From the NCBI GenBank assembly GCA_022842625.1, contig JALHPG010000006.1, positions 1-64,000 on the forward strand: a stretch of DNA of 64,000 nt. Direction: 5' to 3'. Positions 2,003 through 20,109 of the stretch are shown here, piece by piece. Both the position numbers and the translations under genes were made by a program. Within the stretch, counting starts at the first letter, position 1. Each line of letters begins with the position of its first letter. The DNA is from Bacteroidia bacterium (GTDB lineage: Bacteria > Bacteroidota > Bacteroidia > B-17B0 > Aurantibacillaceae). The notes under the pieces were generated by a model that had not been told where the DNA came from, searched no databases, and was given only the letters and a program-made list of their open reading frames with translations.

Positions 2003-3526
2003 TTAGGCGAACACCTTCATCTCACCTCCTTGATTATATCTACCATACTGAGTAGCTATACCTCTTTCAGGAACTTCAATCACGACATCAACATTATGCT
2101 TATGCTCCATAGCACCTTTATGATTTCCATCTTTTGTAGTTTGGAAAATGTAAATATAACTGATGCCGGAATTTTTACGTTCCAATAGATCAAGTTCTTC
2201 AGGACTTAAACCAGCCTTATTTACACTATCAATAAAAACAAAATCATAACCTGATATTTTAGTTGGTATATAATCAGAAACGAATAAATTCGGATGTGCT
2301 ACGTTTTTTTCTTGTAGTTTTTGTTTTAAGGTGTCATCAAAACCTTCTTCATAAGCTATATATAATACCTTACCATGATAGCGAGCCAAGTAACCTGCAA
2401 AATCAATTGCTAAATAGGATTTACCAAATTTTGGTCTGCCGAATATCATTGCAGAAAATCCACGAGAAGGGTTGCCGATAAAAGTCAACCATTTACCGCT
2501 AAACCCAAGTTTATCAGTTTTAAGTTCAATAACATCCTGAGAGTTTAGTATTTTATTTCTAGGTGGCAACGTTTTGGTTGCATCGGTTTTAAAATCTTCT
2601 CGCTCATCATCAAAACCGTTTAAGGAGTGATTACAGCCGCACTCTTTTAAAACACCTTCTAAACCGTTTAACTGAGCTTCTGTAATTGATAAAGTTGGTT
2701 TACTACTTTGTTGTTTTACAAAATGCTCTAATGAACTTAAAATAATTTTAACATGCTTTATGTATTTATCGGTAGGTGTTAATTTTTTTGTTTCAAGGGC
2801 ATCAGCAATTCTGTTGTAAAGATTTTTTGCTTTTTCTTTGGTCATTTCTTTGCCCTGCAAATTAATATAGGCTTTAATAAAACGAACAGAATTCATAACC
2901 ACTTCACCGCCACCAATTTTTTGATACTTGATTAAATCAGCATCACTAAATTTAAACGTGATTTCTTTGCCCATTTTTTTATAACTGTCAACTAATTGTT
3001 TTTGTATGTACTCAATTAGTTTAGCATGTTTAGAAGTTTTACGCACTCGTTTTTCTATAATTGCTTTTTGTAGGGAGCGTATAAAACTAAGAACCTGGTC
3101 TTTGCTTTTTGTTTTGTTATGCAGAGAAGCGAAACGACGAATAAAAGCCGTTTCGGGGCTAATTAATTCTACATCCTTGCCATTAAACTTTTGTTTTGGT
3201 TGTTTTTTATTGGGTGTTTTGTTATTCCGTGACGGTTCTTTGTAATTTGTTTGATATGGCTTAACAGGTTTTTCTGTTTTAACAGCTACTTGTTTTTCAG
3301 GTTTGGGAGTAGGGGATTGCTTTGATTTTTCAGAAGCTTCGATAAATTTCGCCAACACCTCAAAAGTCAAATCAAATTGTTTTTTGAACGTACCATAAGC
3401 ATTCCAATTCGTTCCGTTTTTGGTTGCTTTCTCAATTAACTCATGCCCTTTTTTTAAAGCAGGAGATAAATTCTCAACACCAACTTTTGCTACCGTTGCA
3501 AAATAATTATCGCTTGTAATTTTCAT
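2003..3526 (-). CDS. RecA/RadA-like P-loop ATPase with basic N-terminal region
   Basis: Walker A GRPKFGKS, Walker B DFVFIDS; last gene of the minus-strand block. Confidence 0.7.
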   Translation of the reverse strand: MKITSDNYFATVAKVGVENLSPALKKGHELIEKATKNGTNWNAYGTFKKQFDLTFEVLAKFIEASEKSKQSPTPKPEKQVAVKTEKPVKPYQTNYKEPSRNNKTPNKKQPKQKFNGKDVELISPETAFIRRFASLHNKTKSKDQVLSFIRSLQKAIIEKRVRKTSKHAKLIEYIQKQLVDSYKKMGKEITFKFSDADLIKYQKIGGGEVVMNSVRFIKAYINLQGKEMTKEKAKNLYNRIADALETKKLTPTDKYIKHVKIILSSLEHFVKQQSSKPTLSITEAQLNGLEGVLKECGCNHSLNGFDDEREDFKTDATKTLPPRNKILNSQDVIELKTDKLGFSGKWLTFIGNPSRGFSAMIFGRPKFGKSYLAIDFAGYLARYHGKVLYIAYEEGFDDTLKQKLQEKNVAHPNLFVSDYIPTKISGYDFVFIDSVNKAGLSPEELDLLERKNSGISYIYIFQTTKDGNHKGAMEHKHNVDVVIEVPERGIATQYGRYNQGGEMKVFA

Positions 3527-3551
3527 GTTTCTTCGTTTTAATTTCTAATAA

Positions 3552-6500
3552 TTATGCCGCTAAGCGGAGCATTTCTAATTCAAGTTCTAATTCTACTTCC
3601 ACCGCTAGAGCTAAGAGTGATAGTTCTTCCTGCTCTTCAACTTCCTCTGGGCTTAATAGAATGATTGGATGTCGGGCTTTGTGTGCTTCGTTATTTTCAT
3701 TCTCGATACTTTTAAATTGTATCATATCTACCAGTAACGAATCATTAAACTTGGCTTGCAGAATATTTAAGAATGCTTTTAAATTGGCATCTTCTATACT
3801 TGCCACCATTTTATCGGCAGTTTTATTAAAGTTGTTACTGATGACTAATTTTAAAATATCGGTATCTAAAAACACATCGCCACCACGTTGTTTAGATGAT
3901 GGAACAATAATCTTAAATAGATCCCCGGTGCTAAAAATTGAAGTTCCGTTTTGGGTGGTAATTCCTTTACCATTTACCAAACCTTTAATTATTTTCGCTG
4001 CCCTTGCAATGGGAACGGCAACTTTATTTTCCATGCCGTTTTCATCTGCTTCCCAATATTCCGGCATTAAGATTCCTTTTTTGGTTTCATTAGTATTGGT
4101 GGTGTAACTTACTAGCTTACCTTTAAAACTGGCGAACGCCTGTAATAAATTTCCTGTTACGATATAACGTACCCCACGAGATTTACTGCTTGCTTTAATG
4201 GCTTGTTCCCAATTCGCTAATAATTCATCTGTGCTTAGTTCTTCAACATTATAACTTGCGCCAATAATGGCATTTACATCTTGGGTATAAGAAGCGGGAA
4301 TGGCAATGTACTTGTTAGAAGAAGCTAAAGCAAAACGTAAACGGATATTACTTGGCGCATAGGGGTTTTTCTTTTTCTGGTCGATAATAAAACCTAAGAA
4401 TACCGAAGTTATTTTAACATCGCCCTCTGAATAAGAACTAATAGGATAGAGGGTATTCCTGCCAACATAAAAGAATTTAAAAATACCGTTTAGATATTGC
4501 AAACGATTTTTATTTTGGATTTGTAACTTCTCATTTTGTTTGCTACTGGCTTCGTTTAATTCTTTAGTACGTTCCTTTTCATATAATAAATAAGCACCTT
4601 TGCCTTCTTTTTCTAAAATCTTTATTCCCTTTTTTTCATTGGGGATGTCTTTGATAAATTCTGCATAATAGTTTTCGTTAATTGCTAAATCTTTTTCTAA
4701 TTGAGATTTAAAAAATTTGTCTGCTTCTTTAATAATGTGTTGTTGTAATTCTTTTGGATTTAGACCTAAGTCATTGCTTAAACTTTCTTTTAAGATATTT
4801 TCTAGTTCAGTTTTAGTAAATGGTTTGCGTAAGATGTTAGCTTCTACTTTTTCTAAAAAACTATCTGTTCCAAATTCACTATCGCCACCTTTGCCCATAC
4901 GCACTACTTTTTGCGACACCATTTCAGCTTCTAAGTTCATCGCTTCAACCTCTAAGTCATATTCGCCTATTTGTTTTAAGTATTCAACATACTCTATATA
5001 GACTTGCGATATTTCGGTATAAAACTCCGCTTGCATTTTTGTAGAAAGTACCGCCACACGCCCTGATACTTTATGAGCGGCTTCTTCTAATACTTCTCCA
5101 CCTTCATTAGAAGTATCTTCTAATTTTAAAGGATCGCCTAATAATTTATTGGTATCGGGATTATCTTGTAAATATTGTGTAACAATTTTATCGCCATATT
5201 TATTTAAAAAATCGGGTACATCTAAAATTTTGGTGCTTTGTTTTTGGTTAGAGGTGGTATTGGCATCTAAGGATTTCAATTTCTTTTGTAACATCATCAT
5301 TAAACGTTTTTCAGCTGGAACGGCACTCATTACGTAATCATAAATAGGAGCAAGGATTTGTCCAGTACGATTAATACGCCCTCGTTTTTGTACTTCAGTA
5401 TTAATATCTAGTTCGGCTTGTAAAACAATCATAACACGTTGTTTTACCTCCTGTGCATTTACTTTTTTGGTAACGATGGCGTGAGCCGATGCACCAGTTG
5501 CACCTGACTGATTAATTAATAATACATCCACCTCGTTATTATTAAATTGGCGAAAGGCATCATTAGTATTTATTTTGGTACGACTTAAAACAACACCTTT
5601 ATTTGTTTTGGTATTAATTTGTACCTCGTATTTCCGCCCTGTAACTTCAGCAACATTGTAGCCTGCCGCCTTTAATTTTTGAACGATAATATCAATCGGC
5701 GAAATAGAAATCCCTGAGCTTAATGTTTTTATTTTTTTGGAGATCTCTAAAAATTTCTCTCGCACTTCGGGAGCAAATTCATTTAACTGAAATTTTTTAA
5801 ACTCTTTTTTGCCTTCAGGGGTGGTAATTGTGTAACGTAATATACCATCTAAGCCACGTTGCAACACTTCTGAAAAATCAGCATTAATCGTATCTCCATT
5901 AGCCACAGGTAGACCTGCTTCGTTTTCCATTTGCTCAATAAAACTTCCCATAGTAGAAGCAAAAGCAATCACAGGTTTTTTACCTTCTTTCAATCGCATG
6001 ATGGCTCGATCAGCCACTGCATCGGCTTTAATTGAAAATAGCATTTGATTAATTACTTGAAACACTTTAGAGAAGTAGGGCATATTATCAACCCCTGCCG
6101 CAGAAGTTCCGCCACGTTTGGTAATTTCTTTACCCTCTGCAACGGCAATGTCATCCATTTCATCAACCATACTATCTACGTTGGTAGATTGAAAGGAAAT
6201 TATATCACGTAAGATTTCAGTAATGTTATCGGCAATAGCTTTATGCTCGTTCTCTAATTCATCGAGCGTTAAATAGTTCACTTCAATCCCTTCAAAACTT
6301 CTTTCTCTGCGAAGCATTTGTCCTTCCTTCACTAATTGAGAGGCTAATACTTCCTGTAAAGCAACACCACCTTTGGTAATAGCTTCTACTAATTCGTCCT
6401 TACTCATGTTGGCATCGCTGATAGCGGTTTTCATGGCGTAGATGGGCATGTTATCAGGACGTTTGGCAAACGTTGCCGATAAAAAAATTACACCCTTTGC

Positions 6501-9449
6501 ACTGCCAACTATTCCTTGCAGATATTCGCCAGTTTGTGATGAACCCGAAGCATTATGACTTTCATCTAAGATCATAATATTATCTTCTGCGATCACTCTT
6601 AGAAAATTTGGCTTTTCGGGTTTACGGTCAGGTGAATTAAATTGGGTGTAAGTCGCTAATACAAAATCTGCGTTTGCAGGAATACGCTGATCTTTAAAAT
6701 ACACTTGTTGTTCGGCGGGAGATAAGGCGTGATGAATAACCTCTCCGTTTTCATCTTTAATATCGGTTTTACTTTCTCTACCATTAACAATAAACGGAAC
6801 CAAATGAGCAGATCCAATAGCGGTTAAATCTCGGTAGATGTCTGAAAATAAATTTGGCTTTTCTGTAATAAAAATGGGTTTTTTGCCTTGTAAAACGGCG
6901 TAACGAATCATTGCCGCTGCAATACGTCCTTTACCTATTCCTGTTTGGTCACCGATAATCATTCCCTGTTCTCGTGCTTCGATATTATAAATTGCCATTG
7001 CAACGGCATCGGTTTGTTCAGCAGATAAAGCTTTACACAAATCCAGTTTAGAACTATACCCTAAACGTTGGCGAACAAACTCATCCATATTCCCGCCAAC
7101 TTCTTGCTGAATAAATTTTAAGGCTTGGCTTGTTTCATATTCCATAGAATCGGGAACAACGGTATTTAAAACAACACAGCTTTCTGATGCAGGTAAATAG
7201 GGAGCCCCTAAATCAGTTTCATTATTATTCAGTTTGTTTAATTCCGCTTCGAGTTGACTTTCTAAATCTGCAAAAGCATTTTTAAAACTGTGTTCTGCAT
7301 GGCTTGATTTATTTTTTGTTGCTTCTAATTCTTCTGCGATGCCAACACGGTTACCTGCTTTTACTAATTTGTTCAAATACATATCTAAATCGCCAGTTGG
7401 AAATTTTATGTAAGTGAACTCTTGACCGTTTTGATGAAATTGATTTATAGGTAAACTAATTATTTTATTGATAATAGCTACATCATCTTTGAAAGCATAA
7501 TAATTATCTCCTACACGAACTAATAATAAAACATCTTTGTATTTTGGTTTTAAGCCAGTAAAATTTTTAAAAGCTTTTTCAGTTTCCGATTGTTCCATTG
7601 CTGATAATTTTGTGTGAGTGGATGATGTGTTTTCCTTTTCACTAGTGCCGTATTCAAAAGGCAAAGCAGTTCTCATGGCATCCATTACTCTGTCGTATAA
7701 CTCATCAAAACGACTTACAACTTTTGCATTGTAGGTATTAGAAGTTGGGGCAACACCGCTTGCTTTTTCTTTCCTGCCATTAATTAAAATCAAGCGTGTA
7801 TTAAAACTTGTGCCTTGGCGAGAATATAATTTACTGCCGTCAATAGGAATAACATCCATGACATTAAAATGCGAGTACAAATAATTAAAGAAAATACGAT
7901 TACCGCCTTTTAAGATCCTTCCTTTGTCATCATATTTAGTGTGACCACCAATTATAATGGCTGACTTGCCATTGTCTTTTACCATTTCTAAAGCACGGAT
8001 TGCCATCAAATGGTCGAGTGTATCAATCGGGTAATTATCAAACTCAACTGTTTTATTTAATCTTCCAAAGGGTGGGTTAGTAATTACTGCATCAAATTTT
8101 TTATTCCAGTTAACATCTAATGATTTTGAAAACGGTTTTGTAGCATCTTCTTGATAAACACTTCTAAACCCCTGAGTTTGTAAATGCAAATGGCGAGTGT
8201 TATCAATTTCATTTACTCTGAAATAATATGGGTTGGCGGCAATGGTTAATAAGCCGTTCCCTGCGCTTGGTTCAAAAGCAATTTTCTCTTTTTCTTCTTC
8301 AAATTTATCTACACCACAAAAAATGCCTGCTAAAAAACCTATCGGTGCAGGAGTAGAATACTGCTGTAATAAAATACTTTGTGAAGTGCGGTGTGATAAA
8401 TTAACTTGAGTTTCATACAAGCGTACAATTTTTTTATAGCGTTCGCTAACTGAAAGTTGTTTGGATTGAGCAATACTTCTTGCGGTAATGACGATGGCTA
8501 ACTCAATTAATTCTTTGATATTATTTTTATCATAAATTTTAAATGAAGCGCCTAATTTTTCTAATACCGTTTTATTACCGATAGTTTCTAGTTCGATTCG
8601 ACGAAGAACTTGGGTTAAAAATTGTTGGTGGTTAAGCGGTAATAAAGAAAAACTGGTTTCTGAGGGTAAACCATCTAATCCACTCATCATACCCTCATCT
8701 CCAAATGAATAAAAATCTTCACTTGTTATGATTATGTGGTCAAGCACATTAATATCAAAAAGTTGTGCGGTTTCTTTGATTTTTTTAGTGATGGCAACAT
8801 CTTCATTACTTGGTTTGGTATTACCGCTTGGGTGGTTGTGTGATAAGAGGATAGAAGTACAAGCGGATTTAACCGCTACCGCCATTATTAAACGGATGTC
8901 CACGATTGTTCCCGTTAGACCACCTTTACTATGGCGGTAATAACCCAGTACTTTATTCTGACGGTTGAGATACAAAATAATAAACTGCTCCTGTAAATCT
9001 ATTTCGCCGTCGGGATAAATATCTCTCAATACTTTCTCGGCATCTTTGGACGAGTTAACTTTCGCTAATAGTTTACTATCTGTTCCACGATGGTATTGAA
9101 TTTTAATTTCGGGGATATTTATTTCAGTAACATCGCCTAAAATAATTTCAGGTTGCTCAGAATAATAACAACTACTTGGTTCCATCGCATCTGAGCCGTT
9201 GTGCCAATCTTCCATCAAATCCCAGTCAATAACTTCTATCAAATCTTCTATACTGTTATACCACTTTGTATCTCTGCCAAAACCAATAATTTTTAAGGAT
9301 CCTTTTTGCTTTTCGATTTCCTGCACCATAATTTGAGAAAACAAATCACCTTTCCAACCAAACGGTTGTTTGAACGTAATGATTTTTCCTTTTTCATTAA
9401 TTGCTTTAATCCGTTTGGCTTTAGTATCGTATAATTTTGCTTTTGACAT
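3552..9449 (-). CDS. Giant multidomain protein: RadC/JAB domain + N6 DNA methylase + strawberry-notch-type SF2 helicase (DarB-like architecture)
   Basis: RadC motif SHNHPSGNTKPSNED; methylase NPPF motif (ITNPPFGRLN); helicase GDQTGIGKGRIAAA, LDESHNASG, NRTGQ motifs. Confidence 0.85.
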   Translation of the reverse strand: MSKAKLYDTKAKRIKAINEKGKIITFKQPFGWKGDLFSQIMVQEIEKQKGSLKIIGFGRDTKWYNSIEDLIEVIDWDLMEDWHNGSDAMEPSSCYYSEQPEIILGDVTEINIPEIKIQYHRGTDSKLLAKVNSSKDAEKVLRDIYPDGEIDLQEQFIILYLNRQNKVLGYYRHSKGGLTGTIVDIRLIMAVAVKSACTSILLSHNHPSGNTKPSNEDVAITKKIKETAQLFDINVLDHIIITSEDFYSFGDEGMMSGLDGLPSETSFSLLPLNHQQFLTQVLRRIELETIGNKTVLEKLGASFKIYDKNNIKELIELAIVITARSIAQSKQLSVSERYKKIVRLYETQVNLSHRTSQSILLQQYSTPAPIGFLAGIFCGVDKFEEEKEKIAFEPSAGNGLLTIAANPYYFRVNEIDNTRHLHLQTQGFRSVYQEDATKPFSKSLDVNWNKKFDAVITNPPFGRLNKTVEFDNYPIDTLDHLMAIRALEMVKDNGKSAIIIGGHTKYDDKGRILKGGNRIFFNYLYSHFNVMDVIPIDGSKLYSRQGTSFNTRLILINGRKEKASGVAPTSNTYNAKVVSRFDELYDRVMDAMRTALPFEYGTSEKENTSSTHTKLSAMEQSETEKAFKNFTGLKPKYKDVLLLVRVGDNYYAFKDDVAIINKIISLPINQFHQNGQEFTYIKFPTGDLDMYLNKLVKAGNRVGIAEELEATKNKSSHAEHSFKNAFADLESQLEAELNKLNNNETDLGAPYLPASESCVVLNTVVPDSMEYETSQALKFIQQEVGGNMDEFVRQRLGYSSKLDLCKALSAEQTDAVAMAIYNIEAREQGMIIGDQTGIGKGRIAAAMIRYAVLQGKKPIFITEKPNLFSDIYRDLTAIGSAHLVPFIVNGRESKTDIKDENGEVIHHALSPAEQQVYFKDQRIPANADFVLATYTQFNSPDRKPEKPNFLRVIAEDNIMILDESHNASGSSQTGEYLQGIVGSAKGVIFLSATFAKRPDNMPIYAMKTAISDANMSKDELVEAITKGGVALQEVLASQLVKEGQMLRRERSFEGIEVNYLTLDELENEHKAIADNITEILRDIISFQSTNVDSMVDEMDDIAVAEGKEITKRGGTSAAGVDNMPYFSKVFQVINQMLFSIKADAVADRAIMRLKEGKKPVIAFASTMGSFIEQMENEAGLPVANGDTINADFSEVLQRGLDGILRYTITTPEGKKEFKKFQLNEFAPEVREKFLEISKKIKTLSSGISISPIDIIVQKLKAAGYNVAEVTGRKYEVQINTKTNKGVVLSRTKINTNDAFRQFNNNEVDVLLINQSGATGASAHAIVTKKVNAQEVKQRVMIVLQAELDINTEVQKRGRINRTGQILAPIYDYVMSAVPAEKRLMMMLQKKLKSLDANTTSNQKQSTKILDVPDFLNKYGDKIVTQYLQDNPDTNKLLGDPLKLEDTSNEGGEVLEEAAHKVSGRVAVLSTKMQAEFYTEISQVYIEYVEYLKQIGEYDLEVEAMNLEAEMVSQKVVRMGKGGDSEFGTDSFLEKVEANILRKPFTKTELENILKESLSNDLGLNPKELQQHIIKEADKFFKSQLEKDLAINENYYAEFIKDIPNEKKGIKILEKEGKGAYLLYEKERTKELNEASSKQNEKLQIQNKNRLQYLNGIFKFFYVGRNTLYPISSYSEGDVKITSVFLGFIIDQKKKNPYAPSNIRLRFALASSNKYIAIPASYTQDVNAIIGASYNVEELSTDELLANWEQAIKASSKSRGVRYIVTGNLLQAFASFKGKLVSYTTNTNETKKGILMPEYWEADENGMENKVAVPIARAAKIIKGLVNGKGITTQNGTSIFSTGDLFKIIVPSSKQRGGDVFLDTDILKLVISNNFNKTADKMVASIEDANLKAFLNILQAKFNDSLLVDMIQFKSIENENNEAHKARHPIILLSPEEVEEQEELSLLALAVEVELELELEMLRLAA

Positions 9450-9525: not shown

Positions 9526-10008
9526 TTAAATGGCTATGAGAAGAATGAGTATCCCAGTACTAAACGCAGTTGAGCCTAGAAAAATGTTGCGCCATCGTTT
9601 TGCCCGATTATGTTTTTTCTCTAACTTTAAATAGTCGGTTTGTAATTGTTTCTTTTCTGTGCCGCATTGGTTGCCTATAGTTTCTAAAGAGGTATTTGTC
9701 GTTTTATATTCCTCGAGGCTTTTATCTTTAGTGACTATCAGTTTATCATAATTGCTGACCAACGCACAATTTAAACTATCCTGTTGTTTGATGACACTTT
9801 GTAAGGCGATAGATTCAGACCTGAGTGTATCGTATTGCTGAAACACATAATAATATTCGCCAAAGTTCTCATTGCTCAATACAATGGCTCCATCTTTTGG
9901 GACGACATAATTTTGTTTATAATGTAATACCGTAAAAGTTGGAGTTTGGCTTTCTGCAATGCCTGAGAAGCATAAAGTGAGCAGTAATAATTTAAGGAGT
10001 GATTTCAT
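9526..10008 (-). CDS. Exported coiled-coil protein with C-terminal TM (spanin/holin-like layout, unproven)
   Basis: N-terminal signal-like segment, coiled coil, C-terminal hydrophobic segment. Confidence 0.5.
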   Translation of the reverse strand: MKSLLKLLLLTLCFSGIAESQTPTFTVLHYKQNYVVPKDGAIVLSNENFGEYYYVFQQYDTLRSESIALQSVIKQQDSLNCALVSNYDKLIVTKDKSLEEYKTTNTSLETIGNQCGTEKKQLQTDYLKLEKKHNRAKRWRNIFLGSTAFSTGILILLIAI

Positions 10009-10081: not shown

Positions 10082-10492
10082 TTATCTCGTGTTTTCTTTT
10101 TTATTCACCTCCTTTTGATTTGTTTGGGTTAGTTGTTGGATGTATTTATTTTGTTGCTCTTTGGTGAGTTTGTGCCAATTAGAGTTAACGATGGCGCTTA
10201 TTTTTTCTTGGATGTTTTGACTTTTATCCGCTATTTGGAGAACGAATAATTTTTGTTGTTGCAGTTCTACAAGAATACTGTCTTGCCTAATTTGCAAACG
10301 AGATAATTGCGTTTGTAAATTATTTTGTACGTGAATAATTTGTGCTTGTTCGCTTGTAGCGATAGGTAAAGTTGTTTTGGCTTTAAAATTGTGTTCTACT
10401 CGGATATAGAATAAAATGCCAATTAAAAAACTTATTACGTTTACCCACATATTTACCTGTTCGGGTTTTATTTCTCTGTTTAGGATTTTCAT
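10082..10492 (-). CDS. Small membrane-anchored coiled-coil protein
   Basis: One TM (VNVISFLIGILFYI) then Q/K-rich coiled coil. Confidence 0.55.
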   Translation of the reverse strand: MKILNREIKPEQVNMWVNVISFLIGILFYIRVEHNFKAKTTLPIATSEQAQIIHVQNNLQTQLSRLQIRQDSILVELQQQKLFVLQIADKSQNIQEKISAIVNSNWHKLTKEQQNKYIQQLTQTNQKEVNKKENTR

Positions 10493-10544: not shown

Positions 10545-10880
10545 TTAGGGATTGTTTTTAATAGGCAACTCCATGTTAAACCTAGTTTTGAGTAATTGCT
10601 TAAATAAACTACTGCTACTATATCCTATTAAGGCACTATCGAGCGTATTGTAAGAGGAATAAATTTGTGGCAGCGTACCTAAACAAATGGCAATCGTGAT
10701 TAGGGAAATCAGCCATACGATGGTGTAATCTTCAAAAAACACTTTCCAATTGATAGTAGAAAGTTTTAGGTGGCGAAGTTTTACAACAACGTGAACTAAC
10801 AACCCTAGCAAGGCAAAAAACCAATCCGCTATGCCTGTGTGCGGAAATATACTGTGGTAGATATCGAGGAACGTTTTCAT
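10545..10880 (-). CDS. Small multi-TM membrane protein (holin-like size)
   Basis: Two hydrophobic segments in 111 aa. Confidence 0.5.
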   Translation of the reverse strand: MKTFLDIYHSIFPHTGIADWFFALLGLLVHVVVKLRHLKLSTINWKVFFEDYTIVWLISLITIAICLGTLPQIYSSYNTLDSALIGYSSSSLFKQLLKTRFNMELPIKNNP

Positions 10881-10920: not shown

Positions 10921-11592
10921 TTATGTGCTATATTTCTTGAGTAAATAAATAGCTAGGGCGGTTAATGAAGCTGCTCCAGTTAGACCATAAGTCATCCAGC
11001 GCCTTGTTTGCCGTTTAATGGAACGTAAATCAATTAGTGTATAGGAAAATCGATTGCCATAAAGTTGTCGGTGCTTTTCGCAGAGCTGCATAAATTGTAT
11101 GAACTCATTATTTTTCTCAAAGACTTGACAACCTGCGCTCCACTGTCCTACTTTTTTTGTTGCGCCATGTATGGAAGCCCTGTGTATGTTTACTCCGAAT
11201 AACCCTTTAGATTCTCTGCCATTATTAAAATCCAAAATCGCATTGCGATCATAATCTCGGATTACGGTTATCGGTTTTGCTTGCACTAAGGCTTTGTATT
11301 GCCCTTTGTGTAAGCCAATACGGTATGCATTGACATACTGCCCTTGTTTTAAAATAGCGGTTCCATCCACTTGCAAAGGATTATTTAACCAATACGTTCC
11401 GGGATCTGTTGTAATTGTGTACTTGGCTTGTTCCCATTTATTTTTATCATTTTTAAAAAGAACGTGTAACTCATCGTCAAACTTATCTGAAGCCGTTTCT
11501 GTATTACGAATACCAATAATGTTTAATTGGTATGGCTTACGGTAAATTTCATAACCGCTTCTAGCAAGAAGGACGATGAGTTTCTGAATCAT
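10921..11592 (-). CDS. L,D-transpeptidase-like murein enzyme with C-terminal TM
   Basis: NIHRASIHGATKKVGQWSAGCQVF: HxH...SxGC-like catalytic motif; paralogue of next gene. Confidence 0.65.
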   Translation of the reverse strand: MIQKLIVLLARSGYEIYRKPYQLNIIGIRNTETASDKFDDELHVLFKNDKNKWEQAKYTITTDPGTYWLNNPLQVDGTAILKQGQYVNAYRIGLHKGQYKALVQAKPITVIRDYDRNAILDFNNGRESKGLFGVNIHRASIHGATKKVGQWSAGCQVFEKNNEFIQFMQLCEKHRQLYGNRFSYTLIDLRSIKRQTRRWMTYGLTGAASLTALAIYLLKKYST

Positions 11593-12185
11593 TACAGAGA
11601 ATTTACTTCGTTACTATTGATGAGCGTGTATGAGAACTTATTTTTACCAGTCGCTAAAACAGATTGGTTGCAGAGTTCAATAAAATCTAACCAGTCGTTA
11701 TTAATTACCTGACAACCTGCGCTCCATTTGTCAACCGTTACAGATGGCTGTAATAAATTAGCATGGTGGATATTGGCTTTTATTACTTCAAAAATTTCAG
11801 GGGTATTTTTAAAGTCTGGTGTAGCGTCTAAATTATTATCTCTAAAAAAAGATATTTTACCGATTTGTTCTAAGGCTTTATACCCTCTGTGTTTGCCAAC
11901 TTTGTAAACATTCGGGTAATGACCTTCTTTCATAATGGCGCAACCTTTTACATTGAGAGGGTGGAGCAACCAAAATTGACCGGGATCTGTTGTCGCTGAA
12001 AAACAATGTAGGGTATCATCACCATAATGGTCTTTAAACAAAACGCAAATGGTATCATCAAATGAGTTAGGTTGCGATTGGCTATTACGAATACCAATGA
12101 TGTTTAATTCCCAAACTCCTTCTTTTAAGGCATAGCCTTTGCTTTTAAAGACAGCTTTTAGCTGCTCTATTCGTGGTTTATACAT
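11592..12185 (-). CDS. L,D-transpeptidase-like murein enzyme (tandem paralogue)
   Basis: NIHHANLLQPSVTVDKWSAGCQVI; shares LNIIGIRN, TDPG.(F/Y)WL..PL and GQY/GHYPNVYKVG-like blocks with neighbour. Confidence 0.65.
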   Translation of the reverse strand: MYKPRIEQLKAVFKSKGYALKEGVWELNIIGIRNSQSQPNSFDDTICVLFKDHYGDDTLHCFSATTDPGQFWLLHPLNVKGCAIMKEGHYPNVYKVGKHRGYKALEQIGKISFFRDNNLDATPDFKNTPEIFEVIKANIHHANLLQPSVTVDKWSAGCQVINNDWLDFIELCNQSVLATGKNKFSYTLINSNEVNSL

Positions 12186-12204: not shown

Positions 12205-12666
12205 TTAGGCAATTAATTTTGTGAACTCTGTTAAATCAATGTTTGTTTTAAGTCCTTTGCTTTTTAAGGCGGCTGTGGTTTCTTTTCCGAACCAACCATC
12301 TGCACCATATTTTGGGAGAATGCCTTTGCCGTATTTTTTTATTAAAGCGGTTTGCATTTGTTTAACTAATGCGCCTTTACTGCCTTCCTTTAGTGGGTAG
12401 GTGCTATTACTAGTTGGTGCAGATTTTGTTTTTGGAGCAGAACTTGTTGCCGTATCAAGTTCACTCATTTGAGTTTCATCGGCGGTTGACTTTGGTTTAA
12501 AGTAAAAAAATGCGCCAGTACCCAGACCTAATAAGCCCAATGCAATTAACATCGCTCCAACTAATCCTTTACTTTTCTTTTTAGATTTAGTATTGGCTTT
12601 AGGTTTGCTTTTAGATTTGCCTTTTGGTTTAGGCTTCGCTTTCGATTTTATTTTTTTCTTTGCCAT
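12205..12666 (-). CDS. Membrane-anchored peptidoglycan-binding (PG_binding_1-like) protein
   Basis: KPK/KSK-rich N-terminus, TM, then LKEGSKGALVKQMQTALI...YGADGWFGKETTAAL; start moved from 12705 to the ATG at 12666 to reduce overlap. Confidence 0.65.
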   Translation of the reverse strand: MAKKKIKSKAKPKPKGKSKSKPKANTKSKKKSKGLVGAMLIALGLLGLGTGAFFYFKPKSTADETQMSELDTATSSAPKTKSAPTSNSTYPLKEGSKGALVKQMQTALIKKYGKGILPKYGADGWFGKETTAALKSKGLKTNIDLTEFTKLIA

Positions 12667-12668
12667 TG

Positions 12669-13358
12669 TTATTTTTTTGGTTTTAGGTTTATGATTGCTC
12701 GCCAAGAAAAATCAAACACATCCAGTTCAGAATCTAGTTCTACTTCCAAATACTTTGCATATAATTTGTAATAAACTATTTTGATAATATTCCAAGCTGC
12801 TTGGGTCGGCACTTCATTTAGAACTTGCTTAACCGCTTCTTTATCCGTTGCAGGTAAACCCACGATTTTGTAGTCAAATCCAGCCTTTAAACGTTTGCAA
12901 TAAGAAATAGCCGTGGCAGCATCAAAGATTTTTTTCTGCCCTGTTTTTTGAACTTTAGCGGCTAAAATATTTTGCATTTCAGTATATTCGCTATTAGTTA
13001 GTTCGTCTGTTAAGTCTTTAATTAAATTGCCGCCTTTCGTTAAGTTTTTGTATTCCTTTACTGTTTTTACAAATTCATCTTTACTTGGCAGATCGGTAAA
13101 TACTTTACGAACGCCCTCTACATCTGTACCCCACCAACCATCATTATCAAATGCCATTTTTAAACGCTTGGCGAAATTCTGAGTGCTATTATCGTTTAAG
13201 GATAAATTTTCCGCTTTACCTTCTTTGCGTTTACGATAAATGGCTCTACCCCCAAAAAACAAAATACTTCCAACAGCAATTGCGCTCACACCATATACTG
13301 CCACCCGAATAATTTTTTTATCCGTTTGATTCAATAACGATGTTTTTTGCTTTGCCAT
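12669..13358 (-). CDS. Membrane-anchored protein with two annexin-like internal repeats
   Basis: TM near N-terminus; repeats RLKMAFDNDGWWGTDVEGVRKVFTDLPS... and RLKAGFDYKIVGLPATDKEAVKQVLNEVPT... Confidence 0.55.
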   Translation of the reverse strand: MAKQKTSLLNQTDKKIIRVAVYGVSAIAVGSILFFGGRAIYRKRKEGKAENLSLNDNSTQNFAKRLKMAFDNDGWWGTDVEGVRKVFTDLPSKDEFVKTVKEYKNLTKGGNLIKDLTDELTNSEYTEMQNILAAKVQKTGQKKIFDAATAISYCKRLKAGFDYKIVGLPATDKEAVKQVLNEVPTQAAWNIIKIVYYKLYAKYLEVELDSELDVFDFSWRAIINLKPKK

Positions 13359-13373
13359 TTAATTGTTGTTTTT

Positions 13374-13550: not shown

Positions 13551-13604
13551 TTGGGTGTGTTTTTAGTGGTTATTTTTAATGTTGTTTTTAGTTTGATTTT
13601 TTTA

Positions 13605-14486
13605 TTAGTCTATTTCCGTTTCTGTTTCCAGATCGGGAACTGATCTTGGTTTTCTTGCGATGTAGTTTTTTACGACTTTAATGGCAGATTCAATGCTTGA
13701 AGGATTGGTAGCGAAAAGGTCTAAGAGATACATGATACTGGCGAGGTGGGTTGTGCCAACTTTGGCTTTGATGTCTTTTAGCAATAAAAGATGTTTTTCC
13801 TCTTCGATATTCAGAACTCGTTGGTGGATTTCTTCCACTTCTTCATCGTCTTCGTCCTCATCCTCTGTGCCTGATAAATTTTCTTCAGGTACAATTTTTG
13901 CACCTCCGAAAAAATCTTTTATTATATTAGCAAGTGGTAAATTCTTTTTTACATAATCACTTTCTAAAATTCCCTCTAAGGCGTCTGCTGCTTTTTGTTT
14001 AAATTCTTTATCACGTTTTTCCCGAATACATTTATTTTCTTTTACCGCCTTTGCTAACGTTTCTTCTAATACTTCTATGTCGGTAAGTAATTGACGGTTT
14101 TCCTCAATAAGAGCTAAGTAATGGTTGTCTTTCTCCCATTTTTCTTTAAGTTCATCTTCGTTTTTTGCAATAGGAACCAAACCGCTTAATTCTCTTGTTT
14201 TTGCCTGCGCTAATGAATCAGGACTAATGTGTAAGAAATATTTATCCGAACTTTTTTGATTGTAGTGGTAAACAAATATTTTAACGATGCTTGTATCCTC
14301 AGTAATAAAGTTTTCATACTCATCGAGTTGTTCTATATCATCAGTTTTAGGAACGACTACTAGATCATTAACAAGGACTTCGTAAAATCGAGGTTGATTT
14401 AATCGTAGCGCATTTTTTAAAACCATTTCAATAGTATCTACTATTTTTGGCTCGTACTTTTCGTGTTTTACGCTTGAGTGTCCCAT
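13605..14486 (-). CDS. Hypothetical coiled-coil protein with acidic tract
   Basis: Long ORF in operon; TEDEDEDDEEVEE tract. Confidence 0.65.
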   Translation of the reverse strand: MGHSSVKHEKYEPKIVDTIEMVLKNALRLNQPRFYEVLVNDLVVVPKTDDIEQLDEYENFITEDTSIVKIFVYHYNQKSSDKYFLHISPDSLAQAKTRELSGLVPIAKNEDELKEKWEKDNHYLALIEENRQLLTDIEVLEETLAKAVKENKCIREKRDKEFKQKAADALEGILESDYVKKNLPLANIIKDFFGGAKIVPEENLSGTEDEDEDDEEVEEIHQRVLNIEEEKHLLLLKDIKAKVGTTHLASIMYLLDLFATNPSSIESAIKVVKNYIARKPRSVPDLETETEID

Positions 14487-14518
14487 GTTTATTTGTTTTT
14501 TTTGTTAATGAATAATCT

Positions 14519-14836
14519 TTAGCCATGCTGAGGAATTACTTGAATAAACTGTATCAGTTGAGGGTTGTTAGATTTATTCTTGATCGTGATTTTACCTCGG
14601 TGTTCATATTGCATTTCGTTAATGGAAGTGTCGGTTAAATCATTTACGCCAAACTTGCTTTGCACTATAAAATCCAAATTGGGCTTTATCAAATAATAGT
14701 ATTGGTTATGCGCTTCAATTATTAGTGTTTGATTCCCGTCTAATTGAAGTTGTCGCCATCGGGTGATATAATTATTTTCATAACCCAACTCACGCATACG
14801 ACGTGGAATAAAATCTAAGGCAAATGCTACGGTCAT
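14519..14836 (-). CDS. Small beta-rich hypothetical protein (structural candidate)
   Basis: 105 aa, alternating hydrophobic pattern. Confidence 0.55.
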   Translation of the reverse strand: MTVAFALDFIPRRMRELGYENNYITRWRQLQLDGNQTLIIEAHNQYYYLIKPNLDFIVQSKFGVNDLTDTSINEMQYEHRGKITIKNKSNNPQLIQFIQVIPQHG

Positions 14837-14842
14837 GGTCTT

Positions 14843-15319
14843 TTATTTTAATTCGTATTGGATATAAAGGATTACCTCATAGGGGAGTGTTTCAATTAGT
14901 TCGCCAAAATCATTTTTGTATTGTATAGAAATGGTATCCTCATAGTAGCAGTCCATCATTGCGTGTTGAATAGGAATGTTAGTTTTAAACCAAGTAAATT
15001 GCTTTCCCCATTGTGATAGGTTACGTTTAACGATGGTTGGATAAATAACACGCTCTAAAGTTTGTCTGTAGTCATTATCATCTAATTGTGCAACTTGACT
15101 ATAAAATACATCGCCTTTTTGTGAATTAGATAAAGCCATTGTGCCAACTTGTTTGCCTACACCATTGAATCGTTTATCATAATATAAATTGCAGTTAACC
15201 ATTATGCCGATAATACTTTTAGTATTTTCAGGATGACGGAACTGAAAATTTATTTTCTGCAACAGCTTAGTGACATAAACCGTTTTCAATTTTATGATGC
15301 TATTGGCTTCTCTTTCCAT
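14843..15319 (-). CDS. Beta-rich hypothetical protein (structural candidate)
   Basis: 158 aa; ends EVILYIQYELK. Confidence 0.55.
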   Translation of the reverse strand: MEREANSIIKLKTVYVTKLLQKINFQFRHPENTKSIIGIMVNCNLYYDKRFNGVGKQVGTMALSNSQKGDVFYSQVAQLDDNDYRQTLERVIYPTIVKRNLSQWGKQFTWFKTNIPIQHAMMDCYYEDTISIQYKNDFGELIETLPYEVILYIQYELK

Positions 15320-15376
15320 CTTTTTTATTTTAGACTTATAACTGTTGACTAACGACTATACTCTAACGAATATCTA

Positions 15377-15766
15377 CTAAGCGGTAACTTCACTATACAC
15401 ATACAATTTTACTTTGTATGGTGTAAAAGGTGCGGAAGCGTGATTGGTGTCGGTGTAGTCAATTTCTACTTTGCGATTGCCAGGTAAAATATCTTCGCCT
15501 AGTTTTATCATACGTTCATTTACCGAAACATTTAAACCCTGCATTAATAATTTACTCTCATAACCTTCGGGGAAAATTTCCATCTCATTAATTTTGATTC
15601 GTTGTGTACCTCTGTAATAGAGTAACTCGTCGTAGTCACTGATTAATAAAATGCCTAAGATTTTGCCTGCATGTTTGTCAACTTCAAAACTTTCTTTAAA
15701 AGTTTGATTAGCGGCACTTACAATTACTTCAACCGCTTCTTTAATTATTTTGCTTCTATGTGACAT
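15377..15766 (-). CDS. Beta-rich hypothetical protein (structural candidate)
   Basis: 129 aa; ends YKVKLYVYSEVTA. Confidence 0.55.
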   Translation of the reverse strand: MSHRSKIIKEAVEVIVSAANQTFKESFEVDKHAGKILGILLISDYDELLYYRGTQRIKINEMEIFPEGYESKLLMQGLNVSVNERMIKLGEDILPGNRKVEIDYTDTNHASAPFTPYKVKLYVYSEVTA

Positions 15767-15887
15767 CTTTTATGTTTTTGGTCTGAAATTTCTTTACCTT
15801 TATTTTCCCTAATTGAGAGTTCAGAAGGGTAATTTTATAGTTTATAGCTTTAAAAAATTATTTCTGAACTCCCGTTAAGGACTATGA

Positions 15888-16619
15888 TTATGGAGTAGTA
15901 CCTGTGCCGTCTAAGGCAACATATACTGCGGTGTTTGGATCAACCAAGAACATTGTACCCAATTCGATTACAAATTCAATTAACTCATCGTCTTTGATTA
16001 AACGAGGGTTATCTAATTTGAAGTAACCTAGGTTGGATGTTTGGTTGTTGTCGGTGATGAATTTTCTCATCACGTTTCCATCGGGAATAATTTGTTTTTT
16101 ATTCGCTTTTAATGAAAACTCCGCATTTGCAATTGCAGGAAACTGATTGATGCTTTTAAAATCAGTTGCTTTTGTTTTGTCTTTATCATTTATGTCAGCC
16201 GATAAACCTGCTAACACATAGATACCGCTTACTAAAAACACAAAGTTTTTTGGCAGTTTAGCGTTTGAGATATTACGTAAACCAACTTCTTTGTCATCTT
16301 GTGTTTCAAATAATTTTATTGTTTTACTGTTTACTGGTTTAATCGAATAGATCGAATAATCCGCTAAACGTAAATCACCTCTAAGCAAGGAAGCTTTTAC
16401 ACCGGGTGGCACTTCTTTAAAGAACTTTTCAAATTCAGCTCTTGAGCCTCTTGAAAAACTACTTTTGCCTGACACTTTGCGAAAGAACTTCACTTTATCT
16501 GCCGTGTTCATGTTTCCCATCAACTCGCTTACTTCGCCCATCATGGCATCATCTATGCCCATCAGGTCGCCGATGTTGTTGTACTCACTTTCTAGGGCAC
16601 TTTTCATTAAGTCGTCCAT
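15888..16619 (-). CDS. Hypothetical protein, possible major structural (capsid-like) protein
   Basis: 243 aa; helical N-terminus, beta-rich C-terminus (GYFKLDNPRLIKDDELIEFVIELG...AVYVALDGTG). Confidence 0.55.
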   Translation of the reverse strand: MDDLMKSALESEYNNIGDLMGIDDAMMGEVSELMGNMNTADKVKFFRKVSGKSSFSRGSRAEFEKFFKEVPPGVKASLLRGDLRLADYSIYSIKPVNSKTIKLFETQDDKEVGLRNISNAKLPKNFVFLVSGIYVLAGLSADINDKDKTKATDFKSINQFPAIANAEFSLKANKKQIIPDGNVMRKFITDNNQTSNLGYFKLDNPRLIKDDELIEFVIELGTMFLVDPNTAVYVALDGTGTTP

Positions 16620-16770
16620 TTTGTGGTTTTTTTGGTTATTAATTTTATTGAGTTGTTTTTTTTGAGATAAAAAGTTCCCTACACATCCTTTTTATGGGTT
16701 GCGCTTGCCGTTAAAAAAATGAATAAGGAACTCTTTGTGTTTGGTTTTATTTCTGAAATGCAATTCTCAA

Positions 16771-17364
16771 TTACATTCCCGAAAAGTCAGGCTCGTCTGC
16801 GCCTTCAATGGAAGTTGAAAAACTTCTAGTTGCTGGATTGCCTCTGCGTTTATAAAATGCGTTAGCGGATGAATTCAACTGTCTTTCTACATCATCGAGT
16901 GCGCTTAGATTTGCTTCTAAACTTCCAAAACCCTCTGTACTTTCTTCGTTAGAGTTTTGCCTAGCGTTAGTTGTTTTTTTGGATGGAATTAATTTATCCA
17001 AATACGTTTTTTGCATTAGGCTATCTTTGAAAGAAAGCATTCGGTTTTTTGCATTAGTTGTTTCGGTTTTAAGATCAAATCCTGAAACACCATTACTTTT
17101 ATCAGATATTAGGTGTGAGGTACTCATCATACCTAAACCCAAGGGAGCAAGCCATGAAACACCTTTGTAGTAACCTACACCTGCCAACACTAATCCGATT
17201 AAGAACGAGGGTTTTCCGATTACGGCTCCTGCAACGCCACCACCAATTACCGATATGCCAACTTCGGCAAAGGTTTTTAGTGCGGCTTTTTTCATATCCC
17301 CTTTGGGGTTGACATCAAGTATAGAAACTGACTTGTTGGTCTTTGCTTTGCTTGAACTTGCCAT
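16771..17364 (-). CDS. Glycine-rich membrane protein
   Basis: VGISVIGGGVAGAVIGKPSFLIGLVLAGVGYYKG hydrophobic region. Confidence 0.6.
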   Translation of the reverse strand: MASSSKAKTNKSVSILDVNPKGDMKKAALKTFAEVGISVIGGGVAGAVIGKPSFLIGLVLAGVGYYKGVSWLAPLGLGMMSTSHLISDKSNGVSGFDLKTETTNAKNRMLSFKDSLMQKTYLDKLIPSKKTTNARQNSNEESTEGFGSLEANLSALDDVERQLNSSANAFYKRRGNPATRSFSTSIEGADEPDFSGM

Positions 17365-17500
17365 GTTATTTGTTTTTATTTTTCTGTTTGTTTTTTATTG
17401 GTGTGCTTGGTTGTATTCTTTTTTTCGTTTCACATAAACATAATTGCGCTTGTACTTTGAGCAAATAGGTTGGTTTTAAAAATCAGAACAGAGAAATGTG

Positions 17501-19291
17501 TTATTTTAATTTTTGAATTTTAATATGCGTCTTGTTTTTCGGAAAATAATTTGGGCTTGAAGCATGTTTGTGTTTGTTTTTTTTCTTTTTTGGTAAGCCA
17601 CCCATTGCTTCATTTTTTTTAGTTCCCTTTTTATCTTTTTTACTAAAAGCAATTACTGCCCAAGTAACCAAGCCAACTGCAACTATTGCAATTGCGCCGC
17701 TGGCAACTTTGTTTTCTTTGACCCATGTTTTTACTTTTACCATTGGTGAGGCTTTGGTGTCTTTAGCACTGGTAGTTGCCGTACCTTTTGCATTTTCGGT
17801 AAGCGCAGTATCATTTGCCGAAGTACTTGAACTGTTTGCATCGGTGGTGTTACTCGGTTCGGTAGTTGTTTCAGGTGTATTGCTACTTGAACTGTTATCA
17901 ACTCCGTCTTTGGCATTAACAGATGTGTCTTGAGTACTTTCGTTTTGAGTTGCGTTTGTAGAAGAGGATTCAGAAGTTGGTGTGTCAGATGATGGTGTTT
18001 CTGTTGAAGCACTTTCATTGTTTCCGTTACTTTGCTCTGAGTTTTCTTTTACCGAATTAGCTTGTGGTTTTTTGCGTAAACTTCCAATGCCTTTTAATAA
18101 ACCTGCAATGGCAGTCATTACACTTGTCGCTGCTGCAATCGCAGCTCCTGTCGCTGGCTCTCCTAATCCTTCAATACCTTCTACTCCTTGCATTTCAGAA
18201 TCGTAGCTATCGATTCCTAAAATTTCGGATAAGTCACTATCAATGGTGTAAGTGTTGCCGTCAATCGCTCCTAAACCTGCCATCACTTCTTTATCGTGAT
18301 TACCTTTTCCTTTCAGAATAGCAAGTTTGAAGTTTTCTTCTTTACCGCCTGCGCCATAAAAAATCTTTTGTAAGCGATTTTTTACACCAACCAAGCGATT
18401 AAATTTATCCATATCAAAACCTTTTGCTTGGGCTTGTTCGTTGGATAAATAGCCGTAACGTAATTGTCCCGCAACTTTTAAAATATTTAATTTTAAAGAA
18501 GCTAAAATACCTGCACGCAATAAAGCGGTGGCTGGGTTAATACGATTAACAGCGTGTACACCCTTTCGTAATTTATTATAGACTTTACTTTGCTCAACTT
18601 TTTGAAATTTCTTTTTTACAGTTTGAGCAACTTTGGTATTACGTAAACGTTTACCTAATTCACCCATGTCTTCATAACCCTGTAATAGGTCTTCGGCATC
18701 TATGCCATTTATTTCGCTTACTGGCATTCCTTTGTCGATGCCATCTAAAAATTCTAAATCCATTGCTTTATCTATTGTTTCTATGGGTGGAACTTCGTAA
18801 TTGTATTTATCGACTACGCAATCGACTGTAATGTAATTGCCATTTTGTGTTGGGACGATTGGATAAATGTGCTGAAACCCATTTTCTTCTTTGTATTTGG
18901 CTATTCTTAAAATATGTGGAATGTTTAATTCACATAAACAAGCCGAAACAAAAACGGTGTAATCGTCACAATCAACTCCTCGCTCCCTATCATAAAAACT
19001 CCTGCGAGGACTGCGTATTTGTTCTTTTCCTTTGTCATCTTTGTGGTAACGAACATGGGTGTATAGCCAGTGCCATATTTCCGAGCAAATCCCGTTAACA
19101 TCTTTGCTTTTAATTGTTTTGCAAAATGCTTTTACTTGATACTTTGAACGCTTAATTGCTTTTGGTAAATACGAAACAGTATCTTTTAAACTGGAATCAC
19201 GTTTAATGTCTTCGTTTAACCCTGTGGGTTTTGAAAAACATTTTTCGTACTCCGAGCCTGATTGAATATGTCTGTATTTATTGCTTTCCAA
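17501..19291 (-). CDS. Transglutaminase-like protein with low-complexity linker and TM
   Basis: CSEIWHWLYTHVRYHKDD...SFYDRERGVDCDDYTVFVSACLCEL (Cys-protease-like region), Ser/Thr/Asn-rich linker, TM, basic tail. Confidence 0.6.
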   Translation of the reverse strand: MESNKYRHIQSGSEYEKCFSKPTGLNEDIKRDSSLKDTVSYLPKAIKRSKYQVKAFCKTIKSKDVNGICSEIWHWLYTHVRYHKDDKGKEQIRSPRRSFYDRERGVDCDDYTVFVSACLCELNIPHILRIAKYKEENGFQHIYPIVPTQNGNYITVDCVVDKYNYEVPPIETIDKAMDLEFLDGIDKGMPVSEINGIDAEDLLQGYEDMGELGKRLRNTKVAQTVKKKFQKVEQSKVYNKLRKGVHAVNRINPATALLRAGILASLKLNILKVAGQLRYGYLSNEQAQAKGFDMDKFNRLVGVKNRLQKIFYGAGGKEENFKLAILKGKGNHDKEVMAGLGAIDGNTYTIDSDLSEILGIDSYDSEMQGVEGIEGLGEPATGAAIAAATSVMTAIAGLLKGIGSLRKKPQANSVKENSEQSNGNNESASTETPSSDTPTSESSSTNATQNESTQDTSVNAKDGVDNSSSSNTPETTTEPSNTTDANSSSTSANDTALTENAKGTATTSAKDTKASPMVKVKTWVKENKVASGAIAIVAVGLVTWAVIAFSKKDKKGTKKNEAMGGLPKKKKNKHKHASSPNYFPKNKTHIKIQKLK

Positions 19292-19351
19292 TTTTTATTT
19301 TTTAGTTATCTGTTTTTTTTTGATTAATTTCTAATGACTAAACTCTAACTT

Positions 19352-19816
19352 CTAAATTGTAACATCTTGTGTATGTGTGTAAGGCAGTTTTGCTCCTAAA
19401 ACAACTGCACTTGTTTGAATGGTTACTTGCAGCGTGATGGGATATTTACGGTCTTTTAATTTTTTAATCATTTCCCCTGCAAGACTTCCCAAACTCAAAA
19501 ATTGTATCGGAATTTTTATGTTGTTGATGTTTGTTTGTGATAATGGATCAATGTTTATTTGTTGGTTGACAAGTTCAGAACTGGCTATCACGTTATCTTT
19601 GTAACTGATTTTGATAAAAGGATATTGAACAATTGCTTTGCCGTTACTAGGATTTTTAATCTTAACATCAATTGCCAAAACAATCTGAGAGAAATCAATA
19701 CTAAATATCCGTCCTTTGATTTCTGTAACGATATTATTACCAATTTTGGTTAAACTGCTTAATCCCCAAATGGCTAAGCCTACTACACCGATTATTGCTC
19801 CTGTCAAAAAATTCAT
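19352..19816 (-). CDS. LEA14-like (LEA_2 fold) membrane-anchored protein
   Basis: N-terminal TM then VLAIDVKIKNPSNGKAIVQYPFIKISYKD. Confidence 0.5.
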   Translation of the reverse strand: MNFLTGAIIGVVGLAIWGLSSLTKIGNNIVTEIKGRIFSIDFSQIVLAIDVKIKNPSNGKAIVQYPFIKISYKDNVIASSELVNQQINIDPLSQTNINNIKIPIQFLSLGSLAGEMIKKLKDRKYPITLQVTIQTSAVVLGAKLPYTHTQDVTI

Positions 19817-20109
19817 TATTCTTTATGGTTTTTAGAGTTAATTATTTTTTCTATTTTTTTTAATCGGTCTGAGAGAGAATCAATTTGTCTTTGAAAAACT
19901 TTTGATAGATTTTCAAATAAACTGACGTGAGTGTGAACCTCTCCGTTCAACTTATTTACTCGCTCTAACATTTGTTTAAAGTCTTTATGTAAGTCCTTTA
20001 AAAAATAACCGATTAATAAAAACAACAAACTGATAAGTCCTAGCAGAATGCTGTTTATTACTAAGAGGATTTCTGTGCTGTTCATTTTACTTGTGGTTTT
20101 ATATAACAA
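19816..20109 (-). CDS. Small membrane coiled-coil protein; first gene of the block
   Basis: TM LLVINSILLGLISLLFLLIGYFL then coiled coil; ATG overlaps next gene. Confidence 0.55.
   Translation of the reverse strand: MLYKTTSKMNSTEILLVINSILLGLISLLFLLIGYFLKDLHKDFKQMLERVNKLNGEVHTHVSLFENLSKVFQRQIDSLSDRLKKIEKIINSKNHKE

Follow-up and report, generated by a model that had tools for sequence, protein, structure and literature searches.

Salisaeta icosahedral phage 1 (SSIP-1) is a membrane-containing phage for which two types of capsid protein have been reported, and a 2019 review described its genome as barely similar to anything in GenBank (PMC6356626). Tailless viruses with an internal membrane, a double-stranded DNA genome and single-jelly-roll capsid proteins make up the Helvetiavirae, which include temperate members (PMC12642351), and FLiP has a double jelly-roll major capsid protein (MCP), a single-stranded DNA genome of ~9 kb and a rolling-circle Rep (PMC5894146). 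Here we describe a block of genes in the first 64,000 nucleotides (64 kb; the window) of contig JALHPG010000006.1 (GenBank assembly GCA_022842625.1) of a Bacteroidia bacterium of the family Aurantibacillaceae. We believe that this block is most probably the late half, which makes the particles, of an integrated temperate phage of Bacteroidota that has a membrane and no tail and is distantly related to SSIP-1. Such elements are widespread in genomes of these bacteria and nearly missing from collections of viral sequences.

An earlier note on this DNA had offered a tailless membrane-containing phage, a satellite or an envelope-spanning apparatus as explanations. The first of these is favored by the match of two genes to SSIP-1 virion proteins, by two predicted capsid-like jelly-rolls, by synteny in Bacteroidota, and by the presence of integrases and a lysis cassette. 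The particular models that the note had in mind (PRD1, PM2 and FLiP, with a double jelly-roll) are not supported, as a single jelly-roll is predicted for the capsid protein and neither an A32/HerA packaging ATPase nor a rolling-circle Rep was found. The satellite and the envelope apparatus appear less likely, for reasons given below. The synteny search in Bacteroidota that the note had proposed found the gene order kept in 87 loci.

Relation of the block to SSIP-1

Two linked genes of the block match genes of SSIP-1. SSIP-1 gp34 was the sole match of the transglutaminase-like protein among phage genomes (tblastn E 2e-6), and comparison of the two profiles gave an hhalign probability of 97.5 (E 8e-12). 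Cys108, His141 and Asp157 of the transglutaminase were invariant in 60/60 sequences, and the catalytic Cys and His are common to gp34. The ATPase, with the Walker A motif GRPKFGKS, matches SSIP-1 gp40 (tblastn E 4e-4; hhalign probability 97.6, E 4e-12). Both gp34 and gp40 are annotated as structural in NC_017983. The match to gp34 covers a widespread transglutaminase domain, and what carries weight is therefore that two linked genes both match one tailless phage.

The overall make-up of SSIP-1 is also similar. It has a transglutaminase-like virion protein with a C-terminal transmembrane segment (gp34), a RecA/KaiC-like virion ATPase (gp40), a giant DNA-methylase virion protein (gp43), many small single-transmembrane virion proteins, murein hydrolases with transmembrane segments, and a circular genome that encodes an integrase and is 44 kb in size, compared to 37-50 kb in relatives of the block. 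Its Salisaeta host is related to Bacteroidota. In contrast, the gene order of SSIP-1 is unlike that of the block, and no annexin-repeat or LEA-like protein was detected in this phage. The giant gene and gp43 had no match by blastp and an E of 0.043 with a hidden Markov model; a methylase is present in both and the other domains differ. Profile comparison detected no sequence relation between the other core genes and SSIP-1 proteins, and a search of IMG/VR with SSIP-1 gp46 found SSIP-1 itself only.

Gene content and predicted functions

The block consists of 18 open reading frames, all on the minus strand and packed or overlapping, that fill the window from 20109 to 2003. The earlier note had counted about 19 genes on one strand; the common orientation and close packing hold, and the count is 18. 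It had read the contents correctly (a transglutaminase-like protein, a peptidoglycan-binding protein, two phage-type murein enzymes, an ATPase and many single-transmembrane proteins), including the giant methylase-helicase, in which a RadC domain is present in addition. Pfam and PHROGs comparisons of the 18 products agree with its statement that hallmarks of phage tails and conjugation are absent: terminase, portal, tail, relaxase and secretion or type IV secretion system (T4SS) hallmarks were found in none of them. The same comparisons gave no family match for the middle genes, including the beta-rich 243-aa and 129-aa proteins. The GC content of the block is 0.35 versus 0.34 for the host, and does not set it apart. 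The genes are as follows, with counts taken from the 87 loci.

19816..20109, minus: 97-aa protein with one transmembrane helix by hydropathy, encoded at the start of the late operon; in 5/87 loci, with a different 70-100 aa transmembrane protein elsewhere
19352..19816, minus: LEA_2/WHy-like protein (PF03168 E 5e-4) with an N-terminal transmembrane segment, putative membrane-proximal virion protein; 75/87 loci
17501..19291, minus: transglutaminase-like cysteine hydrolase with a C-terminal transmembrane segment, homologue of SSIP-1 virion protein gp34 by tblastn and hhalign
16771..17364, minus: 197-aa Gly-rich hydrophobic membrane protein (hydropathy); 86/87 loci
15888..16619, minus: 243-aa candidate MCP (AlphaFold, Foldseek); 87/87 loci by construction; ratio of nonsynonymous to synonymous substitution rates (dN/dS) 0.07
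15377..15766, minus: 129-aa eight-strand beta-sandwich, candidate second capsid or penton protein (AlphaFold, Foldseek); 86/87 loci
14843..15319, minus: 158-aa beta-rich protein, candidate spike or receptor-binding protein by its alignment and lengths
14519..14836, minus: 105-aa beta-rich core protein, candidate minor capsid protein; 84/87 loci; dN/dS 0.03
13605..14486, minus: 293-aa coiled-coil core protein; 83/87 loci
12669..13358, minus: N-terminal transmembrane segment and annexin-like repeats (PF00191), putative inner-membrane-binding virion protein
12205..12705, minus: transmembrane segment and peptidoglycan-binding domain (PF01471, weak; phage endolysin PHROGs)
11592..12185, minus: murein enzyme of phage family phrog_3000 (E 3e-33), first of a tandem pair
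10921..11592, minus: murein enzyme of phage family phrog_3000 (E 2e-40), second of the pair
10545..10880, minus: protein with two transmembrane segments (hydropathy), putatively holin-like by size and position
10082..10492, minus: N-terminal transmembrane segment (hydropathy) and coiled coil, putatively spanin-like by form
9526..10008, minus: coiled coil and C-terminal transmembrane segment, putatively spanin-like by form; 61/87 loci
3552..9449, minus: 1965-aa protein with RadC, DNA methylase and strawberry-notch helicase (Pfam), predicted DarB-type polyvalent antirestriction protein
2003..3526, minus: RecA/KaiC-like ATPase, homologous to gp40, the virion ATPase of SSIP-1, by tblastn, hhalign and Walker A

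Two products of the block are predicted to have capsid-like folds. The 243-aa protein is predicted to have an N-terminal helical part and one eight-strand jelly-roll-like domain (AlphaFold pLDDT 84.6, pTM 0.80). Its top Foldseek matches in the PDB were VP4 of Sulfolobus polyhedral virus 1 (SPV1; prob 0.99) and the EhV-201 MCP (prob 1.00), with the FLiP penton, P23-77 VP16 and other capsid and cement proteins among the lower matches; its nearest folds are mainly capsid proteins. A double jelly-roll reading (PRD1/PM2/FLiP) was rejected based on the single eight-strand domain in this prediction. The 129-aa protein is predicted to be an eight-strand jelly-roll-like sandwich (pLDDT 89.7), and matched phage cement proteins and viral coats, and also non-viral jelly-rolls (TasA, CUB domains). 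When the candidate capsid families were compared by sequence with PDB chains, no useful match emerged, and the same was true of Pfam with all 68 capsid-family members.

Other products would fit the remaining parts of a membrane-containing virion. The 158-aa protein is the most variable core member, with a mean column identity of 23% and full-length members of 114-314 aa, and we infer that it is a candidate spike or receptor-binding protein. The transglutaminase-like, annexin-repeat, LEA-like and other proteins carry transmembrane segments as judged by hydropathy, which fits an internal membrane coated by jelly-roll proteins. PF00191 (annexin) was found in 39/40 members of the annexin-repeat family (best E 2e-12). 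The second murein enzyme (10921..11592) is 38-47% identical to crAss-like and other phage proteins.

A short motif, G-h-x-G-h (NGLSGMD, EGLDGVK; h, hydrophobic), recurs in linkers of unrelated core proteins far above the shuffled expectation (window 17501-19291, 16771-17364, 15888-16619 and 13605-14486, and relatives). The motif might be cleaved by a maturation protease, for which the transglutaminase-like cysteine hydrolase is a candidate.

The giant gene is, by its predicted domains, a DarB-type polyvalent antirestriction protein. Proteins of this type are fusions of a methylase and an SF2 helicase, with RadC in many members; they enter the cell along with the DNA and counter restriction, and they occur in conjugative elements as well as in tailed phages (PMC5512222). 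The methylase and helicase make-up is like that of DarB of P1, a tailed phage that has only this type of gene in common with the block. Among phages, the closest homologue that we found is a giant protein (35% identity over 72%) of Bacteroides phage BS-TP4, which is annotated with a portal protein. Both the general occurrence of DarB/RadC proteins and the match to BS-TP4 would be consistent with an origin of the block as an integrative conjugative element or as what is left of a tailed prophage. We consider this extremely unlikely: Pfam and PHROGs gave neither conjugation genes (relaxase, T4SS) nor genes of tailed phages (terminase, portal, HK97 capsid, tail) among the 18 products, and the annotated gene maps of the relatives show none. 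Lack of terminase, portal and HK97-fold capsid in the 18 products likewise distinguishes the block from Caudoviricetes.

Conservation and mobility in Bacteroidota

The order of genes in the block is conserved. The 243-aa protein has 139 relatives in GTDB genomes, essentially all of them Bacteroidota, and 80 of the 87 loci with the same gene order are GTDB loci kept from the scan that gave these relatives. The core comprises ~11 genes, and the near-invariant order is LEA, transglutaminase, Gly-rich transmembrane, 243, (lysozyme), 129, 158, 105, 293, annexin-transmembrane, peptidoglycan-binding, amidase, murein enzyme, transmembrane and fibre-like, followed downstream by a giant helicase or Dam methylase and then the ATPase. 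The giant helicase was found in 46/87 loci and the ATPase in 21/87, both underestimates because the GTDB loci carry flanks of at most 10 kb. The closest relative, G398, has an MCP that is 90% identical to that of the window, and dN/dS between the two was 0.03-0.15 for most genes, with the tm136, tm111 and tm160 genes less constrained. The block is under strong purifying selection and, as judged by conserved order and dN/dS, its organization is far beyond chance.

The distribution of these elements is sporadic. They were found in 3/398 sampled Bacteroidota genomes, and 33/397 genomes in one family carry such elements. A plasmid collection had no match to the candidate capsid families, and open-access papers, to which the literature search was confined (excluding closed journals and preprints), gave no account of proviruses of this kind. 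A gene for a MACPF-like protein (pore-forming fold, by sequence reading) lies near a viral-contig copy of the element (L001:1898-3514).

Site-specific recombinases are found near the relatives far more often than expected. A large serine recombinase was within 40 kb or less in 32/58 copies (placed in 36 genomes), versus 3.8 expected from uniform placement. Its orientation is constrained: recombinases on the strand of the MCP gene are ~15 kb downstream of it, and those on the opposite strand are mostly 7-33 kb upstream. Of 25 copies that make up nearly all of those without a large serine recombinase, 11 had a tyrosine recombinase nearby (at most 3.3 expected), often 15-19 kb downstream on the opposite strand. 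The host has a second copy (contig C57), with a serine recombinase 19.8 kb away that fits the same-strand, downstream pattern. A recombinase at the element end was found for the relatives as a group and for the second copy. The recombinase of G033 directly adjoins the ATPase gene, next to a diphthine-ammonia-ligase-like gene, and the same chromosomal spot is taken by other serine recombinases in related genomes. The site at this ligase-like gene is a hotspot for large serine recombinases in the genus (L007:3635-6762 in G033; L123, L125, L127).

Strong purifying selection and the lack of a detectable recombinase near some copies would also suit a domesticated phage-derived device, that is, a gene-transfer-agent-like, bacteriocin-like or envelope-spanning particle kept by the bacterium rather than an infectious virus. 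G049 has two intact structural modules among host-like genes, without ATPase, helicase or recombinase within 20 kb. However, the related G705 has helicase and ATPase genes ~30 kb from the structural genes, in units of ~50 kb, and therefore the modules in G049 may only look orphaned; given this layout, we dropped the idea of an orphan module or gene-transfer agent as unproven. The sporadic distribution, the divergent copies within one genome and the fact that integrases are the rule also argue against a domesticated device, and we regard it as unlikely.

The element extends beyond the block on both sides. On the left, it reaches the end of the contig, 2 kb beyond the ATPase gene, and because the contig ends there the integrase of this copy is not visible. 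On the right, the boundary is revised to ~25.2 kb, based on four small genes that are syntenic with G398. Relative to G398, the window has two extra cargo insertions in this region.

20244..21620, plus: Hypoth_Ymh-family cargo gene (PF09509 E 6e-23), possibly for defence; absent here in G398
21617..21832, minus: small gene of the regulatory/early region; position kept in G398
21883..22221, minus: small gene of the regulatory/early region; position kept in G398
22234..22575, minus: HTH_17/excisionase-like DNA-binding protein (PF12728 E 2e-5, phrog_66); position kept in G398
22823..24529, plus: CoiA/competence-nuclease-like cargo gene, assigned by sequence reading; absent here in G398
24600..25130, minus: 176-aa protein, last gene syntenic with G398; right end of the element at ~25.2 kb

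In most relatives that were checked, an XRE and an ImmA/IrrE-type regulator were recognized, by reading the sequence, where the late operon has its far end. Genes for restriction-modification and other defence recur at the repressor end of the elements (window 20244-24572; L040, L050, L058, G033, G399, G705). G705 has four copies at ~50-kb intervals that are 68-82% identical in DNA, with defence genes, integrases and helix-turn-helix genes between them; these four related elements look like accretion at one site (G705:C1:1500001-1700000, L169-L178).

Phage satellites often carry or border defence genes, as do many copies of this element, and the element might be a satellite or defence island that has some structural genes of its own and depends on a helper phage. 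The element, however, has a complete and conserved complement of genes for capsid-like and membrane proteins, murein enzymes and an ATPase. Related elements are as large as 37-50 kb and encode an integrase and endolysins themselves, and no helper was identified. Based on these properties, we think that dependence on a helper is very unlikely.

Some distant relatives resemble whole phages. G441:C21 is a contig of 37,090 bases with the same core genes. Its ends carry an exact direct repeat of 19 bases, as would be expected of a circle. Also present are an integrase, GH19 and VanY-type endolysins, a C5 methylase, a ParB/MuF polyvalent protein and a collagen-like fibre. The tyrosine recombinase of this contig (L136:487-1617) ends in an FtsK_gamma-like domain (PF09397 E 1e-4), unusual in an integrase. 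In G428, phage-like genes form a run of ~31 kb between host genes, and many of those in the run are small early genes in one long stretch.

Several copies adjoin CzcA/RND heavy-metal efflux operons (window 26605-32553; G400, G402, G033), maybe a shared insertion neighbourhood. A gene resembling 23S rRNA intervening sequences (four-helix bundle, by sequence reading) is inside the efflux cluster (window 29023-29388). Outside the element, in a sulfur-metabolism region, are two related genes with metallo-β-lactamase-fold and rhodanese domains (persulfide-dioxygenase-like; window 34142-35557 and 45486-46904).

Interpretation and proposed life cycle

We compared the element with other groups of viruses. 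The Helvetiavirae (Sphaerolipoviridae, Simuloviridae and Thermus phage P23-77) have two single-jelly-roll capsid proteins. Two eight-strand jelly-roll-like proteins are predicted in the block, with Foldseek TM-scores below or about 0.5, and P23-77 VP16 was among the matches of the 243-aa protein. There was no sequence similarity to this group. Its FtsK/HerA packaging ATPase was not found in the block, the sole ATPase of which is RecA-like, and we therefore do not place the element in the Helvetiavirae. PF01580 is absent in SSIP-1 as well. VP4 of SPV1 (Portogloboviridae) was the best PDB match of the candidate MCP, with a low TM-score (0.31/0.40), but SPV1 is an archaeal virus and no shared genes were seen. 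FLiP (Finnlakeviridae) is a tailless membrane phage of Bacteroidota (Flavobacterium), and its penton is a weak fold match. It differs in that its Rep was not matched in the 18 products (Pfam, PHROGs) and in that the candidate MCP of the block is single jelly-roll-like.

Several points weigh against a tailless phage related to SSIP-1. The element is known from its genes and predicted folds. The capsid assignment is from predicted folds with Foldseek TM-scores of 0.2-0.5, and these modest scores therefore support the fold class and not the family. Sequence comparisons of the candidate MCP with gp45 and gp46, the likely MCPs of SSIP-1, did not establish them as homologues (best local match P 0.05). 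Pfam and PHROGs gave no packaging ATPase of the FtsK/HerA type among the 18 products, and the block has no clear replication gene. The integrase of the window copy is out of view at the contig end, and some other copies have no recombinase within reach. Lastly, only 2 of 2.9 million contigs in IMG/VR have a relative, in a collection that favours recognisable viruses.

We believe that the element works like a virus of the SSIP-1 or sphaerolipovirus type, and do not claim membership in either group. The element would insert by means of its serine or tyrosine recombinase, and would be silenced by a repressor (XRE plus ImmA/IrrE in most relatives). Upon induction, the operon would be read leftwards from 20109. 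The 243-aa protein and the small beta proteins would form an icosahedral shell over a host-derived membrane vesicle bearing the LEA-like, transglutaminase-like, Gly-rich, annexin-repeat and peptidoglycan-binding transmembrane proteins, with the variable 158-aa protein as the surface spike. The RecA-like ATPase might drive or assist packaging of DNA, and the DarB-like methylase-helicase would be packed and injected, protecting the incoming DNA from restriction. The murein enzymes and the holin- and spanin-like proteins would function in entry and lysis.

We tentatively suggest that these elements could represent a new lineage of high rank (family, order or above) among temperate tailless phages of Bacteroidota that contain a membrane. 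Such phages would have single jelly-roll capsid proteins, a motor that is RecA-like with no HerA-type packaging ATPase, transglutaminase-like and annexin-repeat proteins in their membrane, a DarB-type antirestriction protein that is injected, and much defence cargo. The lineage would be common in Bacteroidota genomes and would have been overlooked by virus-finding tools.

SSIP-1, nearly alone since 2012, would thereby gain a large group of temperate, genome-integrated kin in Bacteroidota. Some of the hosts can be had from culture collections (Chitinophaga, Flavisolibacter, Niastella and others; Flavisolibacter nicotianae X7X and Chitinophaga sp. S165 have an intact copy), and therefore virion structure, packaging without HerA, acquisition of the membrane and induction are directly testable. 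Our results also suggest that current virus catalogues lack an appreciable share of the proviruses of Bacteroidota (33/397 genomes in one family, above) and that these elements move defence genes.

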